From NCBI GenBank assembly GCA_902812505.1, contig CADDZQ010000011.1, positions 1-33,347 on the forward strand: a stretch of 33,347 nt of DNA, read 5' to 3'. This stretch comes from an archaeon. Lineage in GTDB: Archaea > Thermoproteota > Thermoprotei_A > Marsarchaeales > Marsarchaeaceae. This document shows, in pieces, positions 8,259 to 18,434 of this stretch (position 1 is its first letter; every line of letters starts with the position of its first letter). The notes under the pieces were generated by a model. That model was not told the DNA's origin. It was given only the letters and a program-made list of their open reading frames with translations, and ran no database searches. The position numbers and the translations under genes were made by a program.

Positions 8259-8852
8259 CTATCTCGTTCTCCTACTGCTTATTTCCCCAAGTACTAGACC
8301 TATAATTATTAGGGCGAAAACGCTAGCAGCTATCACATTACCAGGTGGGTTTCTTGGTGACGGCAGACTACCGGTGTACATATAGGTTGCACTATAGTTT
8401 AATGGGGCGGTTGTACCCGTAGGCGCTTCAACGATCACCGTTCCCTTCATCCAAGGATGAATAGTGCAGTAGTAATTGAATGTACCGGGGTACGTAAAAG
8501 TGTAGTTCCAGGACTGACCCGGAGGCAATAGCCCAGAGTCAAAAACTCCAGTAGTGGATGTAACAGTATGCGTGACGTTATCATTATTAGTCCACACAAC
8601 AGTATTATTCACACCTATCACAACGTGTATCACATCTGGCGAGTAGCCTAACGAAGACCTGTTATACCCAGCACCGGGAATTATACTTACATGGACAACG
8701 CTTACCTCGCTTGCAGCCGACGATACATACACATGTGTTTGCAGGAGCATTAACGACGTTAGTATTATTATAATCAATGGGGGCATTAAAGTATGCTTTT
8801 TGGGTCTCGATATTGTTTGTTTAATAACGCAACTAAGGCTTTCTCTGCTCAA
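8259..8852 (-). CDS. Membrane-anchored cupredoxin (halocyanin/plastocyanin-like)
   Basis: 197 residues: a basic N terminus (RPKKH), a hydrophobic signal/anchor helix (about 24-38), a cupredoxin domain (about 50-142) and a second helix near the C terminus (about 172-190) ending in RRTR. Type 1 copper ligands are H95 (NVTHTV), C129, H132 and M135 (C-x-x-HPWM). It is likely an extracytoplasmic electron carrier to the CuA subunit, filling the role of cytochrome c. The domain is closely similar to the upstream cupredoxin, sharing VVIGVNNTVVW-x-NNDNV-x-HTVT. TTG 8852 is chosen because AGGTG lies 8 bases upstream; ATG 8786 would remove the basic part of the anchor. Confidence 0.85.
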   Translation of the reverse strand: MSRESLSCVIKQTISRPKKHTLMPPLIIIILTSLMLLQTHVYVSSAASEVSVVHVSIIPGAGYNRSSLGYSPDVIHVVIGVNNTVVWTNNDNVTHTVTSTTGVFDSGLLPPGQSWNYTFTYPGTFNYYCTIHPWMKGTVIVEAPTGTTAPLNYSATYMYTGSLPSPRNPPGNVIAASVFALIIIGLVLGEISSRRTR

Positions 8853-8863
8853 ATGGGTAACAC

Positions 8864-9361
8864 CTAGCTTGTGGTTGAGTTGGACGTAGTGCCTGCGCCC
8901 GGCTGTTGGTTTGAACCACTAGCTAACACAACCACTTTTGCAACCATCCAAGGATGGTATTCACAGTAGTATGTATAGTTTCCGGGTACTGTGAATGTGT
9001 ATTCGAATGTTTGACCTGGGTTCAGATTGCCAGAGTTAAACATTGTGGCGCCGTTAGGAACCGACCTAGCAGTCACTGTATGGGCAACATTATCATTATT
9101 GTCCCAGACTACGGTATTGTTTACACCTATTACAACAACGATGAGTGCGGGATGGTAGTTCTGTCCGTTTCCGTCACCCTGCATTGTTACCTCTACACTG
9201 TGGGGAGGCAGTGATGATGCGGATGATTGCCCTGAGGGTGGACTTGGACTAATTGTGCCGCCGGTGGCAAGTATTACCCCTACACCCACAACTAATACTA
9301 CGCCTACGACAATGAGTGATATAAGCACTGACACGTTAGGTTTCGCTTCATATACAGGCAT
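8864..9361 (-). CDS. Membrane-anchored cupredoxin (halocyanin/plastocyanin-like)
   Basis: 165 residues: an N-terminal anchor helix (about 10-32), a Ser/Pro-rich linker and a cupredoxin domain (about 54-147) with copper ligands H94, C133, H136 and M139, ending in a Gly/Ser/Thr tail. It is the first gene of a two-cupredoxin operon (11-base gap) and a close paralogue of the second. Expected role: an electron shuttle outside the membrane between the Rieske/cytochrome b complex and the CuA oxidase encoded 2-8 kb away. The start is ATG 9361; TATA box at 9393-9403. Confidence 0.87.
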   Translation of the reverse strand: MPVYEAKPNVSVLISLIVVGVVLVVGVGVILATGGTISPSPPSGQSSASSLPPHSVEVTMQGDGNGQNYHPALIVVVIGVNNTVVWDNNDNVAHTVTARSVPNGATMFNSGNLNPGQTFEYTFTVPGNYTYYCEYHPWMVAKVVVLASGSNQQPGAGTTSNSTTS

Positions 9362-11373: not shown

Positions 11374-11492
11374 ATGGATGCGTTTTCAAGTATAAGTTAA
11401 ATTGCTCTGAAAAACCAAAAATTATTAGACGATTCATTTAATTCCTTGAGTATTTTCACTGTTTCACCTAACAGATTAGGGTGAGTGAAACC

Positions 11493-11500
11493 TTTTTATT
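11493..11500 (+). promoter_or_regulatory. TATA box of the oxidase I+III gene
   Basis: TTTTTATT is centred about 32 bases before ATG 11529. It lies inside the in-frame extension beginning at GTG 11481 and so argues for the downstream start. Confidence 0.5.
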
Positions 11501-11528
11501 TGGGTTGTTCTTGATTTACAAGAGCAAG

Positions 11529-14183
11529 ATGGGCGAGGAAGAATTAGCACCAGTTGTGAAGAGTAGGCCCAGTTCTCAGACAGCGTTTTATGCTATACTC
11601 GCTGTGCTTGTTGTTGCTACTGCGGTGCTTGTTGATTTGAATTATGGTACACCTGCGGAGCGTCTTGTATTCTCAGAGGTAGTGATAATCTGGGGAGCCC
11701 TTCTACTACTATACTTCATATTTAATAGGCCTTTCATAGCTACTAGTGAGAGGTTCAGGAAAACCGAGTCGTGGGTTAAACGTTGGCTGTATACTACTAA
11801 TCACAAAGATATAGGTATACTCTATATTGTCACCGCGCTTTTTTATGCTTTTGTTGGGGGAATGCTTGCTGAGTTCATGCGCACCCAACTAGCCGTGCCT
11901 CAAAACCATTTTCTTAATCCACTAGAATATAATGAAGCGGTAAGTATTCACGGTTTGGTCATGATATTCTGGTTCCTGTCACCCTTAGCCTTCGGCTTCG
12001 CGAACTACTTTGTCCCGCTTCAAATAAAGGCTAAGGACCTAGCTTTCCCACGTCTTAACGCGCTCAGCTACTGGACCTATGCCTTCAGCGGCTTACTAGT
12101 TGTGTTGGCATTCTTCCTACCTGGGGGTGATATTAATGGTGGATGGACTCTTTATTCACCACTCACTTCAAATACGTTTATGCCAGGTCCAGGTCCAACC
12201 CTCGGCTTCGCAGGCTTCACCCTTCTCATAGGCTCCATTACAATTAGTAGTATTAACTTTATTGTGACGCTAGTAGCTGAACGTGGACCTGGTGTAACTT
12301 GGTCTAAAATACCCATGTTCACTTGGTTTATACTCTTCACGGTTGTGCAGATGCTCTTCGCCTTCCCCGATCTCCTCTCGGGTATGTTTATGCTAATTGC
12401 AGACAGACTTGCTGGAACAATCTTCTTCACATCCACAGCAGGTGGAGCACTACTATGGGATAATATATTCTGGTTCTTCGGTCACCCGGAGGTGTACATA
12501 GTGCTTCTCCCAGCGTTTGGAGCCATCTGTGAAGTCTTACCGGTTTTCGCACGTAAGAGGCTGTTTGGTAAGAACGCGATACTAGTGGCCACATTTGCCC
12601 TCGTGGTACCATTTAGCTTCCTAGTATGGGGGCACCACATGTTCACTACACCGATACCTCCAACCGAGAAGATGGCGTTTATGGTTTCAACGATGGGCAT
12701 CTCTCTTCCATTTGATGTCATAGTCATAGCGTGGCTTATCACGATCACAGGTGGCTCACTCAGGCTTAAGACACCCTTCCTATTCGCCTTAGCATCAATC
12801 GTAGTGTTCATTATAGGTGGTATAGCCGGGGTGTTCTTGGCCTCTGTTCCTTTGGATATGCTTTTTAGAGGTAGCTACTTTGTTGTCGCCCACTTCCACT
12901 ACGTTATGGTTGGGGCATCTGTTTTCGGACTGTTCGCAGCCTTCTACTACTGGTTCCCCAAGATGACTGGGCGCATGTACAACGAGTTTCTTGGTAAACT
13001 CCACTTTGCTCTTTCAATGATAAGTTTCAACCTACTCTACTTCCCTATGTATTTCCTTATGGATATGCCTCGCAGGATAGTTACCTATAATGTACCCTCG
13101 TGGACACTACCCAACCTCCTTGCCACAATAGGCGGATACATTTTTGGAGCAGTGCAGTTCATATTGGTGGCAAACTTTATTCAGAGTATGCGTAACGGCG
13201 CTCCAGCACCAGCTAACCCTTGGGACGCGGACACACCAGAATGGGAGCCAGAACAAGTTTTGGAAGAGGTAAATGGGGGCTTCACTACCCCAGCTAAGAT
13301 AACACCATCACTTGGGCTCGGTGTTGGTAATAGTCCTCCAATAGCTAAGGCGCCAGCCGTTGATGCGTTGAGAAGCGCCCAACAGGCTGCGACAACAACA
13401 CAGGCTGGACCAAGTGTTGTTGTCAGACACCACGTTAGTACGCGCCCAATTGTGCTTTCAGGCGGAATATCAATCGCGCTTCTAGGATTAGCCATGCTAC
13501 AGTATGCGTACCTAGGTCTACCAATACTGGCTATAGGTGCAACCATCGCTGTTATGAGCATTGTGGGCTGGGCTTGGGATGATATGAACTCGGTATTCCG
13601 GATACCTGAGGGGATAACCGAGAAGTGGCCTTTCACCCAGGTTTCAAGACTTAAGCTCGGGATGTGGTCTTTGATATTCTCAGACGTTATACTCTTCGCA
13701 ACAATACTTACAGGTGATGCTTATATCAGGATAAATTCACCCACGTGGCCTGCACCCAACACTCTTCACCCAATAGTTCTGGGCACGATAAGTACGTTCA
13801 TACTTCTCTCAAGCAGTCCAGCCGCTTATATGGCGCTCGACTCGATAAGGAAGGGTAGTACGAGGGGTATGCTCTCGTGGCTTGGTGTAACGCTCGCCTT
13901 GGGCGCAATTTTCGATGGCTTCGAGTTCTATGAGTGGTGGCAACTCTTCTCCCAACACATGTATCCTTCAACCAGTAACGCTCTCACAACCTACTTCTTC
14001 ACTGTGGGTATCCACGCTACGCACGTGTTGATAGGGTTACTCGTTATGGTTTACCTGATAATAAAAGGATTGAGGGGAGGCTTTACAAAGAGTAATCACG
14101 AGGCGGTTGAGATGTTCGGTATATACTGGTCGTTCGTGGACGCCCTGTGGGTGTTCATCTTCGCATTCTTCTTCCTCCTGTGA
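11529..14183 (+). CDS. Heme-copper oxidase, fused subunits I and III
   Basis: 884 residues. Residues about 80-560 are subunit I: low-spin heme ligands H141 (SIHGLVMIFWF) and H457, CuB ligands H319 (GHPEVY, with cross-linking Y323), H369 and H370 (WGHHMF), and high-spin heme ligand H455 (AHFHY). D-channel residues are kept: D170 with N159 (NYFVPL...KDLAFPRLN) and E321. The K-channel lysine position is I398 (PFDVIVIAW). A Pro/Gly/Ala linker (about 560-640) leads to a subunit III part with LGMWSLIFSDVILFA and YWSFVDALW, where family members usually have E and H (SEV, YWHFVD). Oxygen reduction at the membrane; cupredoxin or CuA donor. The I+III fusion is known from archaeal SoxM-type oxidases. 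Confidence 0.93.
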   Translation: MGEEELAPVVKSRPSSQTAFYAILAVLVVATAVLVDLNYGTPAERLVFSEVVIIWGALLLLYFIFNRPFIATSERFRKTESWVKRWLYTTNHKDIGILYIVTALFYAFVGGMLAEFMRTQLAVPQNHFLNPLEYNEAVSIHGLVMIFWFLSPLAFGFANYFVPLQIKAKDLAFPRLNALSYWTYAFSGLLVVLAFFLPGGDINGGWTLYSPLTSNTFMPGPGPTLGFAGFTLLIGSITISSINFIVTLVAERGPGVTWSKIPMFTWFILFTVVQMLFAFPDLLSGMFMLIADRLAGTIFFTSTAGGALLWDNIFWFFGHPEVYIVLLPAFGAICEVLPVFARKRLFGKNAILVATFALVVPFSFLVWGHHMFTTPIPPTEKMAFMVSTMGISLPFDVIVIAWLITITGGSLRLKTPFLFALASIVVFIIGGIAGVFLASVPLDMLFRGSYFVVAHFHYVMVGASVFGLFAAFYYWFPKMTGRMYNEFLGKLHFALSMISFNLLYFPMYFLMDMPRRIVTYNVPSWTLPNLLATIGGYIFGAVQFILVANFIQSMRNGAPAPANPWDADTPEWEPEQVLEEVNGGFTTPAKITPSLGLGVGNSPPIAKAPAVDALRSAQQAATTTQAGPSVVVRHHVSTRPIVLSGGISIALLGLAMLQYAYLGLPILAIGATIAVMSIVGWAWDDMNSVFRIPEGITEKWPFTQVSRLKLGMWSLIFSDVILFATILTGDAYIRINSPTWPAPNTLHPIVLGTISTFILLSSSPAAYMALDSIRKGSTRGMLSWLGVTLALGAIFDGFEFYEWWQLFSQHMYPSTSNALTTYFFTVGIHATHVLIGLLVMVYLIIKGLRGGFTKSNHEAVEMFGIYWSFVDALWVFIFAFFFLL

Positions 14184-14194
14184 GGTAGTGTGAG

Positions 14195-14473
14195 TTGGAC
14201 GAGGAAAAAAGAAGGTTTAACCCAATACCCGTATGGCTAGCGGTGCTTGCGTCAACAGCGATACAGATAGCTAGTGTGTACAAGCTAAGGCAGTATAGTG
14301 TAGTGGCTACCGATACTCTAATCCTCCTCGTGGGTGCGTTTGAAGTAACACTTATCGGCGCCTACTTTATGCACTTAAAATTCGAGCAGAAATCGCTTCT
14401 AGCAGTCGCGCTGATACCAATATTTATCGTTGGGGCAATGGTTTTCGGCATACTAGCATCGATCGTTAGATAG
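14195..14473 (+). CDS. Cytochrome oxidase subunit IV-like (CoxD/CyoD type)
   Basis: 92 residues, three hydrophobic helices. The AYFMHLKFEQKSLLAVALIP segment is the hallmark of prokaryotic oxidase subunit IV. It follows the I+III gene by 11 bases, and a GAGGT site overlapping that gene's stop lies 8 bases before TTG 14195, so it is translated as part of the same operon. It probably stabilises the oxidase. Confidence 0.8.
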   Translation: MDEEKRRFNPIPVWLAVLASTAIQIASVYKLRQYSVVATDTLILLVGAFEVTLIGAYFMHLKFEQKSLLAVALIPIFIVGAMVFGILASIVR

Positions 14474-14546: not shown

Positions 14547-15464
14547 ATGTTAGAGCCCTTTCTCTGGATGGCCGCTATCGGCATGAGTCTACTCTCAGCG
14601 TACACCTTAGCCTATATCTCAGACACCGATAGAGCCTTAGAGGTCTACTTGGCTATATTCGTGTTGGGTATGATGGCGGCGATGCTGGGTGGAGGCCTCA
14701 TATACTTGGCGCACCCAAGTGTGCCAAGCATAGAAACCGCAATTTGGCTCAACATGGGTGTAATGGGCTTCTTAACCGTACCCATTATACGGGTGCTAGT
14801 GAAAACAGCTCTAGAGAAGGGTGAGCTAACACTATACGTGTACACTATACCTTACAGGTATCTTTGGCTTACACGGATACTAGTCATCAGCCTAGTACTC
14901 TTTAATGAATTGCTAATGGGCTGGGCGTTTATAGCGGTTACGCAAGGCGTGTCCATATTTGGCGTGGGGGGCGGAAGCCTTATTAGGGCTTTCTCAGCTA
15001 TAGTTAGCTCTGACTGGTTTGTATTTATCATGGCTGTGGAAATGGCTTTTTCCGCGTATCTTATAAGGAAGCTTATACCAAAGAGCTTCCTTTTGGTCGT
15101 GCTGTTTCAGACAGCCACGATGATTTTCTCCCCAACAGCGGTAGGTGTAACCTACTGGAAAGAAATAAGTATAGTAGCTGATGGTTTGGTTATGGCTGGT
15201 TTCATGGCGTATGTTTTCTTAAAGCTTTATCGGGGTGCGCCGCCAAATAGGAATTTTATCAGCTACCTCTACACCCTCGTCGTGATATACGTGTTCATGA
15301 TGATTGGTATACTTGTCTGGGTGGCAACCAAGAGTGAGCTCCTATTTTCACTCTCACTTTTCGCCCAAATGGTTCTATATTTCAGAGTGGAGCTTGAACC
15401 ATCCACGCTTACTGCAAGGGAGAAGAGGTCGTGGCTTTTGGATGCTAAATGGAGTTTCCAATAA
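14547..15464 (+). CDS. Unrecognised nine-helix membrane protein in the oxidase cluster
   Basis: 305 residues, about nine membrane helices and short loops. I recognise no family. Visible features: IPYRYLWLTRILVISLVLFN before and in helix 4 (Arg and Trp residues at the membrane face), a GVGGG loop, TYWKEIS between helices 6 and 7, and a short basic/acidic tail (TAREKRSWLLD). I see no paired histidines that would hold a heme. Position between the CoxAC/CoxD genes and the CuA subunit suggests an extra oxidase subunit, an assembly factor or a quinone-site partner. It has its own TATA box. Confidence 0.7.
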   Translation: MLEPFLWMAAIGMSLLSAYTLAYISDTDRALEVYLAIFVLGMMAAMLGGGLIYLAHPSVPSIETAIWLNMGVMGFLTVPIIRVLVKTALEKGELTLYVYTIPYRYLWLTRILVISLVLFNELLMGWAFIAVTQGVSIFGVGGGSLIRAFSAIVSSDWFVFIMAVEMAFSAYLIRKLIPKSFLLVVLFQTATMIFSPTAVGVTYWKEISIVADGLVMAGFMAYVFLKLYRGAPPNRNFISYLYTLVVIYVFMMIGILVWVATKSELLFSLSLFAQMVLYFRVELEPSTLTAREKRSWLLDAKWSFQ

Positions 15465-15714: not shown

Positions 15715-16371
15715 ATGAGCCACTACCTAACACTTTCGGCGTGGGTACTGCAGCCCCCTACAGTTGTGAACTTCCTTTCCGAATATAACCTGTTCCTAGT
15801 GTTGGGGATTGGTGCTGCGGTGCTAACGATTGGCTGGTTGGTGTATGCCACAGTAAAGTACCGGGTCAAAGATGGCTCGAAGGACTTGGAGATGAAGCCT
15901 AGTGGTAAAAATGATAACTTAAGGGCGTGGCTCACTGCTGTGATAACTATAGGTATCCTCGCCGTGGCTCTTATCACGGCGGTGCAGGCAACCCAGTTCC
16001 TTTATAACGCTCCGCCTGGCCCTGACCTAGTTATCACGGTTTACGGTTTTCAATGGGGATGGAACTTTACGTACCCTAATGGGTACTCGGATATTGGACA
16101 CCTAATTGTACCCGCTAATACCACCATTATACTCAATATAACTTCGAAGGATGTATTCCACACGCTGGGTATCCCCTCACTTTACGTTAAGGGTGACGCT
16201 ATACCCGGTCAATGGACCAGTCTGTGGTTTAAGGTTACACAAACTGAGAATATCACTGATGGTATAAGGTGTTATGAGCTATGCGGTATTGGCCACTATG
16301 ATATGGTGGCGAACCTCTCAGTGGTACCGCAGGCACAGTTTCAGGAGTGGTACAGCTCCGTGTCCAAGTAG
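15715..16371 (+). CDS. Heme-copper oxidase subunit II with CuA site
   Basis: 218 residues: two N-terminal membrane helices (about 25-47 and 72-95), then an extracytoplasmic cupredoxin domain. The full CuA set is present: H149 (KDVFH), C186, E188, C190, H194 and M197 in CYELCGIGHYDM. The aromatic entry patch reads FQWGWNF. DAIPGQW corresponds to the subunit II metal/dimer-interface loop. It takes electrons from an external donor, most likely the cupredoxins at 8.3-9.4 kb, as no cytochrome c gene is nearby. It heads an operon with the Rieske and cytochrome b genes, separate from the subunit I+III promoter. Confidence 0.93.
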   Translation: MSHYLTLSAWVLQPPTVVNFLSEYNLFLVLGIGAAVLTIGWLVYATVKYRVKDGSKDLEMKPSGKNDNLRAWLTAVITIGILAVALITAVQATQFLYNAPPGPDLVITVYGFQWGWNFTYPNGYSDIGHLIVPANTTIILNITSKDVFHTLGIPSLYVKGDAIPGQWTSLWFKVTQTENITDGIRCYELCGIGHYDMVANLSVVPQAQFQEWYSSVSK

Positions 16372-16385
16372 GGTGGTGTTGGATA

Positions 16386-17027
16386 ATGGTGGATAAACAA
16401 AAAGATGAGAATGGGTTCGACCCTAATAGGAGGCTTTTTGTGCGCGGTGTGCTTGTAGGCTCGGCACTACTAGTTGGCGGCTCAGCCCTTGGTGTGGGGA
16501 GGTATTTTGTACCCCCAGCGCCAAGCCTTAAACCCTTCCCCCGTGTATTGTTGGGCTATGCGTCAGAGTTTAAGGTCGGGCAACCAATGCAGTACAAGTA
16601 CCCCATGGATAATCAGCCCTGCCTTATAGTCAAGCTTGGCCAGAAAGCTATGTTTGGTGTCGGCCCAGACCAAGATATAGTGTCATTCAGTAATATATGC
16701 CAGCACTTGGGGTGCATCTACCTATATGAGAATAGCGTCACAGCCTGCTCGGGGACCTCTTTCCCGGGGGGACACTGCCCCTGCCATGGTAGCTCCTACA
16801 ATTTCCTAGAGAACGCCACGGTTATATGTGGACCAGCACCGAGACCTGTCCCTCGTGTTATACTCGAGTATGACCCCGTCTCAGACCAGATATGGGCTGT
16901 TGGTATGGCTCCGCCAACGGTGTTCGGCTTTAACACTGGCTCTGATAATGTAGCTTATGACCTCATTGGGGGGTCGATTATACCAGATGGGTCAACGGCC
17001 ACATTGACGCCGGCTCCCACGGGTTAG
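16386..17027 (+). CDS. Rieske iron-sulfur protein (Tat-type anchor)
   Basis: 213 residues. The N terminus has twin arginines R15-R16 (PNRRLFVRG) before one hydrophobic helix (about 21-36), as expected for Tat-dependent insertion of a Rieske subunit. Cluster ligands are C105 and H107 (CQHLGC) and C131 and H134 (CPCHGSSYN), with C110 and C133 available for the usual disulfide. It oxidises quinol with cytochrome b and passes electrons on, probably to the anchored cupredoxins. The start is ATG 16386; a GGTGGTG site ends about 7 bases upstream and overlaps the end of the subunit II gene. A Gly/Ser/Thr/Pro tail closes the protein. Confidence 0.92.
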   Translation: MVDKQKDENGFDPNRRLFVRGVLVGSALLVGGSALGVGRYFVPPAPSLKPFPRVLLGYASEFKVGQPMQYKYPMDNQPCLIVKLGQKAMFGVGPDQDIVSFSNICQHLGCIYLYENSVTACSGTSFPGGHCPCHGSSYNFLENATVICGPAPRPVPRVILEYDPVSDQIWAVGMAPPTVFGFNTGSDNVAYDLIGGSIIPDGSTATLTPAPTG

Positions 17028-17036
17028 GTGGTAGGC

Positions 17037-18434
17037 GTGGTCGAGAACTCTAAAAGCACTGAGAAGGCCTCCGACCCAATAGATTATATTTGGAGGTGGA
17101 TAGAGGATAGGACGGGTCTTAAGAGGCTCATACTCAAACCTCAACCGGAGTTCACTTTGTTTAATCCACACTACTGGCTGGGGGCTCTCGCAGTTATAGC
17201 CTTCGCGTTCCAAGCCGTAACCGGATTCCTACTTATGATGAATTATGTGCCCCTCTACCGCACATTGCCCACAGGGGCGGACAACCTAGCGTGGGAGTCG
17301 GTGAATAACATTATCCACAACGTGCCGTTCGGCTCCCTGATTGCCAGTATGCACCTCTACGGCGCGTACGCGATGGTTATGATAGCCTTCGTCCACTTGG
17401 TGAGGAACTTTCTCATAGGGGGCTACAAGAAGCCGCGTGAACTTATGTGGATCCTGGGAATAATTCTGGGGTTCATAACACTCGTCTACGCATTCACAGG
17501 TTACCTTCTACCTATGAACACAGTCTCCTATGGCGCTACAAGTGTGGGTGTCCAGCTGGCGAGCTACTTCCCCGGATGGATAGGTAAAGTTGTACCAAGC
17601 CTACTTAAGGGAGCCGTGTTCCCAGATGACACGCTTAACAGGTTCTTCGCATTCCATGTTGTACTGCTACCAATACTCTTCATACTGGTTCTCGGCGCAA
17701 AGATAGGCCTAGTCTTCGAGGCCCACGGCGCCAGCGGACCAGTCGAGGTATCAGTGGACAGGGGACCGAGGAACAGGAAGGTCAACTGGTACCCCAGACT
17801 CATCTGGTACAGTTTGGGCTTCACACTTATCTACTTTGCCGCCTTACTCATAGTCTCAGCCCTCTTCCCCATAAGCGCGGGCACAGAGTATACTGGGGGG
17901 TCACTTGGAGCCAACATATTGCCTGACTGGTACTTTGTCTGGACCGATATAGTTCTACGCGCAAGCTTCTTCTCGAATCAATACGTACTGGACGGCCTCC
18001 TCACCATGGTGGGAGTGATACTCCTATTAACGCTTATACCTTGGGTGGATAGGAGCCCCGCGAGACACCCCGCCCAGCGCCCACTTATCAACATACTATT
18101 TATAGCGTTAATAGGGGAGCTATTCGCACTCACAGTGTACGGATACCTAACAACTACTGCGCTTGAAATCGCCTCAGCCGGGGAAATATTCGAGGTGTTT
18201 GTTTTCGTACCCCTAACAATCATTCTACTGGGGTTGGTCATATACAGATTCAGCCCAGCCTACGTAGTCAACAAGGGTAAGCTGTGGGCGATAAAACCAG
18301 AGTGGGATTATGCTGAGATAAAGAGAGAAGCTGAGGCAGGTGAAGCGCTTGTGCCCACAAACCTATACAGGGGTGAAGCTAGCGCTGATTTGGGACGCAA
18401 GCTGAAGCCTAACCCAGAGGATAAGCCAGTGTAA
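17037..18434 (+). CDS. Cytochrome b of a Rieske/cytochrome b complex, with an unusual heme-ligand position
   Basis: 465 residues, eight membrane helices, N- and C-terminal parts fused as in bc1. Helix 2 keeps H106 and H120 (H-x13-H). Helix 4 has H207, but 15 residues on, where b6-type proteins have the second histidine, there is K222 (HVVLLPILFILVLGAK). The Qo motif is PDWY (296-299), not PEWY. KLWAIKPEWDYAEIKREAEAGE forms a charged C-terminal tail. GTG 17037 is preferred: AGGTGG, overlapping the Rieske stop, ends 5 bases upstream; GTG 17028 is the alternative. It moves electrons across the membrane from quinol. The family call is sure; the lysine needs an alignment. Confidence 0.93.
   Translation: MVENSKSTEKASDPIDYIWRWIEDRTGLKRLILKPQPEFTLFNPHYWLGALAVIAFAFQAVTGFLLMMNYVPLYRTLPTGADNLAWESVNNIIHNVPFGSLIASMHLYGAYAMVMIAFVHLVRNFLIGGYKKPRELMWILGIILGFITLVYAFTGYLLPMNTVSYGATSVGVQLASYFPGWIGKVVPSLLKGAVFPDDTLNRFFAFHVVLLPILFILVLGAKIGLVFEAHGASGPVEVSVDRGPRNRKVNWYPRLIWYSLGFTLIYFAALLIVSALFPISAGTEYTGGSLGANILPDWYFVWTDIVLRASFFSNQYVLDGLLTMVGVILLLTLIPWVDRSPARHPAQRPLINILFIALIGELFALTVYGYLTTTALEIASAGEIFEVFVFVPLTIILLGLVIYRFSPAYVVNKGKLWAIKPEWDYAEIKREAEAGEALVPTNLYRGEASADLGRKLKPNPEDKPV

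Follow-up and report, generated by a model that had tools for sequence, protein, structure and literature searches.

Lysine occupies a heme-ligand position in cytochrome b across archaeal lineages

Ligation of each heme by two His is commonly counted among the features that define bc1/b6f cytochrome b. Here we report that a cytochrome b encoded in a 33,347-nt stretch of archaeal DNA (the window, meaning the whole stretch that was analysed) has Lys at a heme-ligand position, that this Lys is fixed across a group of archaeal lineages, and that the protein otherwise keeps its heme pocket and Qo motif and has an intact Rieske partner. The protein is a variant of the Rieske/cytochrome b (bc1/b6f-like) complexes and not a plain member, because its helix D reads H-x14-K and Lys is found in 27/27 variant members. 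Quite probably it belongs to a working bc1-like complex whose N-side heme bH has His123 and Lys225 as its ligands, a ligation that we infer without a structure or spectrum.

The N- and C-terminal cytochrome b domains of the gene product (PF13631, PF00033 and PF00032) all scored over the curated Pfam cut-off; the SoxC equivalog NF041076 was not reached (151 bits versus a 740-bit curated cut-off). Helix B has the normal H-x13-H (H109 and H123, sequence HLYGAYAMVMIAFVH). In helix D the second ligand His of H-x13-H or H-x14-H is missing: NRFFAFHVVLLPILFILVLGAKIGLVFEAHGAS, the translation of 17637–17735, contains a His (codon 17655–17657), 14 residues, a Lys (codon 17700–17702, AAG) and then EAHGASGP. 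The Qo motif is PDWY in this protein and PEWY in other Lys-type members. The relevant features, with conservation taken from a pocket alignment of 70 sequences (27 Lys-type and 43 His-type rows), are as follows.

16347–17027, + strand: Rieske 2Fe-2S protein, partner subunit, directly upstream of cytochrome b with a gap of 0 (PF00355; CQHLGC...CPCHGSSY)
17028–18434, + strand: cytochrome b subunit, 468 aa, fused b6 plus subunit-IV type, Lys-ligand variant (PF13631, PF00033, PF00032)
17181–17225, + strand: helix A glycines G52 and G66 (G-x13-G heme packing), invariant in 70/70 aligned sequences
17352–17354, + strand: His109, helix B, heme bL ligand position, invariant in 70 aligned sequences
17394–17396, + strand: His123, helix B, presumed heme bH partner ligand, invariant in Lys-type and His-type proteins
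17457–17501, + strand: helix C glycines G144 and G158 (G-x13-G heme packing); among Lys-types, G144 in 26/27 and G158 in 27/27
17655–17657, + strand: His210, helix D, heme bL ligand position, invariant in 70 aligned sequences
17700–17702, + strand: Lys225, helix D heme bH (N-side) ligand position in H-x14-K, from profile alignment to Rhodobacter sphaeroides His212
17724–17726, + strand: His233 of EAHG, proposed alternative ligand, not supported by the alignment of 70 sequences
17922–17933, + strand: PDWY (residues 299–302), Qo-site motif, PEWY equivalent, from the sequence and its alignment with the Rhodobacter and Aquifex PEWY

The sequence-only reading had put the Lys exactly on the second ligand of the inner, N-side heme. 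A profile of eight Lys-type proteins, when compared with PDB sequences, bore this out, placing the Lys column, unforced, onto His212 of R. sphaeroides cytochrome b and onto the ligand His of Aquifex; the clade-wide conservation described below agrees. In R. capsulatus, His212 of cytochrome b is the heme bH ligand (PMC4807273). The H-x14 spacing of helix D has a precedent in cytochrome b6, and almost all Lys-types of the main group outside Marsarchaeota show H-x14-K-x7-G, which reproduces the b6 spacing exactly, without any flanking indel, and makes the register of the ligand position unambiguous. Marsarchaeota have one extra residue between the Lys and the following Gly relative to other Lys-types. 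By alignment, then, Lys225 stands where helix D normally supplies its second ligand, to the inner (N-side, bH) heme.

The Lys is not peculiar to the window. Among 121 distinct cytochromes b from genomes of the phylum Thermoproteota, the only group surveyed (the counts do not cover other archaea or bacteria), the ligand quartet was HHHH in 94 and HHHK in 27, with no third state. The nearest named relative, a 97%-identical protein of Candidatus Marsarchaeota G2 archaeon ECH_B_1, has Lys, as do the ~70%-identical relatives in one Marsarchaeota G1 genome and two other archaeal genomes. A contig scan for relatives gave matches in Marsarchaeota-like genomes only. Lys was present in 5/5 genomes of the window's family that have this cytochrome b, and in three genomes from a second family, whose proteins are 44% identical. 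Of these three, G057, which we take to be Caldisphaera lagunensis, is a complete genome in a single contig of 1,546,846 bases; the Lys-type cytochrome b is its sole match to the query and is therefore no idle second copy. The phylum-wide extension found only Lys in the families f24 (five genomes), f17 (one), f56 (two) and f66 (three). A separate and very divergent family of 407–444 aa proteins (f25, the Pyrobaculum-like group), from genomes presumed to be Pyrobaculum and Thermoproteus species, also has H-x14-K. Together, the 27 Lys-types come from Marsarchaeota, Caldisphaera-like and Pyrobaculum/Thermoproteus-like genomes and four further family groups, and identity between the main-group lineages is mostly 31–39%. 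The H-x14-K of helix 4 and H-x13-H of helix 2 noticed at the outset are thus confirmed by the translation, by the relatives and by the 27/121 count, and the question left with them, whether close relatives share the Lys, is answered: it is common to them. The HHHH set includes Sulfolobales, a second Marsarchaeota paralogue and genomes that we assume to be Aeropyrum, Nitrosopumilus and Caldivirga. That paralogue (L086–L089) represents a second Rieske/cytochrome b pair in Marsarchaeota, with the normal four His. The lineage has been described as the order Tardisphaerales in Thermoproteota, with bc1 and aa3 genes in some members (PMC12542729).

In the mechanism that we propose, Lys225 would bind the heme bH iron with His123 opposite; the heme would stay low-spin, and its midpoint potential would lie tens of mV above that of a bis-His counterpart. 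Electrons would continue to pass from quinol at Qo through heme bL and heme bH to quinone at Qi (two-heme binding and Q-cycle activity are part of this inference), and the second quinol electron would go via the Rieske protein to the oxidase of the same operon. The closest comparison is the engineered H212K of R. capsulatus, the same substitution at the same aligned residue, which has a low-spin, functional His–Lys heme bH with gz 3.22/3.15 instead of 3.44, an Em7 of 130 mV instead of 80 mV (that is, +50 mV), a turnover of 121 versus 149 s-1, and photosynthetic growth (PMC4807273). There it is a laboratory revertant/mutant of a His enzyme, whereas in the archaea it is the native, clade-wide state. 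The sequence-only reading had also raised the possibility that electrons are bifurcated differently; nothing supports this, and in the H212K enzyme the transfer of electrons from Qo to Qi keeps a competent rate (PMC4807273).

A raised bH potential could serve to match a high-potential quinone pool, an inference to which the Pyrobaculum-like group gives no support, its quinones being presumably menaquinones. AlphaFold prediction for five Marsarchaeota sequences (pLDDT 35, pTM 0.21) was too poor for a Lys–iron distance.

Conservation of the pocket bears on the alternatives. The 16 main-group proteins share 51 invariant positions, including H109, H123, H210, K225, G52, G66 and G158. In the Pyrobaculum-like group R126, R137, E231 and H233 are changed, and the Lys and the three ligand His are kept. 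The Lys has been retained over a tree length of ~13 substitutions per site among main-group proteins and of ~2 within the Pyrobaculum-like group. Loss of function would let position 225 drift, so the finding of only His or Lys in 121 proteins counts for function; nor is Lys merely tolerated, because other residues should then appear there. Conservation alone, however, would look the same if the Lys amine had some essential role other than binding iron. Heme bH might be five-coordinate through His123, high-spin or ligand-accessible, with Lys225 beside it and not bonded to iron, perhaps donating protons or partnering a propionate or the quinone at Qi. Lys amines can act as proton donors, and strict conservation of the Lys would suit any essential role. 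We nevertheless consider such an arrangement unlikely: the Lys sits at the exact ligand position and is exchanged with His only, and the corresponding residue of R. capsulatus H212K binds iron in a low-spin His–Lys heme (PMC4807273).

More doubtful still is that heme bH has been lost, with electrons reaching the Qi side otherwise or the complex running without a Q cycle. Cofactor loss usually begins with a lost ligand, and in R. capsulatus the H212N mutation knocks out heme bH (PMC4807273). A pocket no longer in use would be expected to decay, however, and His123 and the glycines of helices A and C, which would then be free to change, stay conserved over the ~13 substitutions per site, with Lys alone at position 225 in the 27/27 variant sequences. 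Between the two options offered by the sequence-only reading, the evidence thus favours His–Lys ligation with a shifted potential and disfavours loss of the heme. That another residue takes the ligand role is very improbable. The candidate named earlier, His233 in EAHG (eight residues further along), does not vary within the main Lys group, but Gly or Ala stands there in the Pyrobaculum-like Lys group. It also occurs in 14/43 His-type rows, which have four ligands already, and by inference is two turns of the helix away from the plane of the heme; the replacement by Gly/Ala and the occurrence in His-type proteins rule it out. Finally, although the window genome is fragmented and 79% complete, a sequencing error at 17700, or any assembly or alignment artefact, can be set aside, as the Lys recurs in the independent 97%-identical record and the ~70%-identical ones, in complete G057 and in more archaeal lineages (27 distinct proteins in all, from many genomes, some of them complete and in a single contig, under an unforced profile alignment).

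How often the Lys state with its presumed His–Lys heme arose is less clear. In a tree built without the ligand columns, the free topology requires two changes, and tests of a single clade were not rejected for the main group (p-AU 0.33) or for all Lys-types together (p-AU 0.25). Deep branches of the cytochrome b tree are long and weakly resolved. From these sequences the Lys arose once or twice; a single origin cannot be taken as settled, since the free tree needs two changes even though the AU test does not reject one clade.

Compared with known complexes, the Lys-type protein resembles bc1 cytochrome b (Rhodobacter, mitochondria) in its four-helix heme bundle, the H-x13-H of helix B, the Gly pairs of helices A and C, a PEWY-like Qo motif (PDWY here) and a Rieske partner gene, and differs from it in having Lys for His as the helix-D heme bH ligand and in the x14 spacing of helix D. 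It shares with cytochrome b6 of b6f the x14 ligand spacing, a Pro in the first turn of helix D and the sequence that follows (ISGP in b6, ASGP here). Unlike b6, it has Lys for His, combines the b6 and subunit-IV parts in a single chain, and has W50 aligned at the position of the helix-A Cys that carries covalent heme cn; because W50 replaces this Cys, no heme cn is expected. The Sulfolobales SoxC, SoxG and SoxN proteins and the Acidianus ba complex are relatives at ~30–35% identity, with four His in those inspected.

Pintscher et al. (2016) noted that no natural Lys or Met axial heme ligand was known in integral membrane proteins and expected that cases would be found (PMC4807273). We probably have here a native His–Lys heme in a transmembrane protein, in a distinct, clade-wide archaeal class of Rieske/cytochrome b with one or two origins, and hence the natural case anticipated by the authors of H212K (PMC4807273). 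In some heat-loving archaea, nature seems to use a heme grip that was thought absent from membrane proteins. If this is true, a clade with the engineered substitution would be a natural experiment for that expectation (PMC4807273), and would show that ligand exchange can tune the bH potential in evolution. We found no earlier report of a natural Lys-type cytochrome b in the open-access literature; most subscription journals were outside the scope of this search and priority is unproven. The Lys-type can be tested in cultivated archaea, because it is present in complete genomes that we take to be those of Caldisphaera lagunensis and of Pyrobaculum/Thermoproteus species.

In Marsarchaeota the cytochrome b gene comes last in an operon with the order I–III fusion, subunit IV, unknown membrane protein, CuA subunit II, Rieske and cytochrome b, a SoxM-like oxidase gene order as in the Sulfolobales systems. 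The oxidase of the window operon is aa3-type, and its genes are as follows.

11481–14183, + strand: oxidase subunit I–III fusion, SoxM-like arrangement (PF00115, PF00510)
14195–14473, + strand: oxidase subunit IV (PF03626)
14547–15464, + strand: predicted membrane protein, 305 aa, unknown family, between oxidase subunits IV and II (no Pfam match)
15715–16371, + strand: cytochrome oxidase subunit II (PF00116), CuA motif CYELCGIGHYDM

Upstream of the oxidase operon, at 2449–2679 of the window, lies a half-size Pfam match to heme A synthase (CtaA). The CtaA search gave only this half-size match in Marsarchaeota, and it missed Sulfolobales too, though heme a is reported there; the Acidianus ba complex uses heme a (PMC12808453). 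Because the search misses Sulfolobales as well, the missing match says nothing on whether Lys substitutes for heme a in raising the potential.

The cluster ligands are present in the window Rieske protein, whose gene adjoins cytochrome b, and a Rieske or Rieske-like gene adjoins the Lys-type cytochrome b in the lineages inspected. The other neighbours vary between lineages, so that the Lys variant is not tied to one electron acceptor. In two loci (L083, 12046–13260; L162, 5444–6562) an EB_dh gene (ethylbenzene dehydrogenase heme subunit-like, CbsA-like) lies directly upstream of the Rieske and Lys-type cytochrome b genes. In L090 (f24) the putative Rieske partner at 8600–9307 is degenerate, keeping CxH...CxxH without the disulfide Cys pair and giving no Pfam Rieske match; a NarI-like gene and a 4Fe-4S/CCG (DsrK/HdrD-like) gene follow it. 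The Pyrobaculum/Thermoproteus-like Lys-types (L147, L149–L151, L153–L156, L157, L160) have the Qo motif PWPV(M/E)WYY, not PEWY, and have lost usually conserved Arg residues; in two of these loci (L157, 9673–10893; L160, 9042–10325), genes for a Rieske protein and a small cytochrome c lie upstream of the Lys-type cytochrome b.
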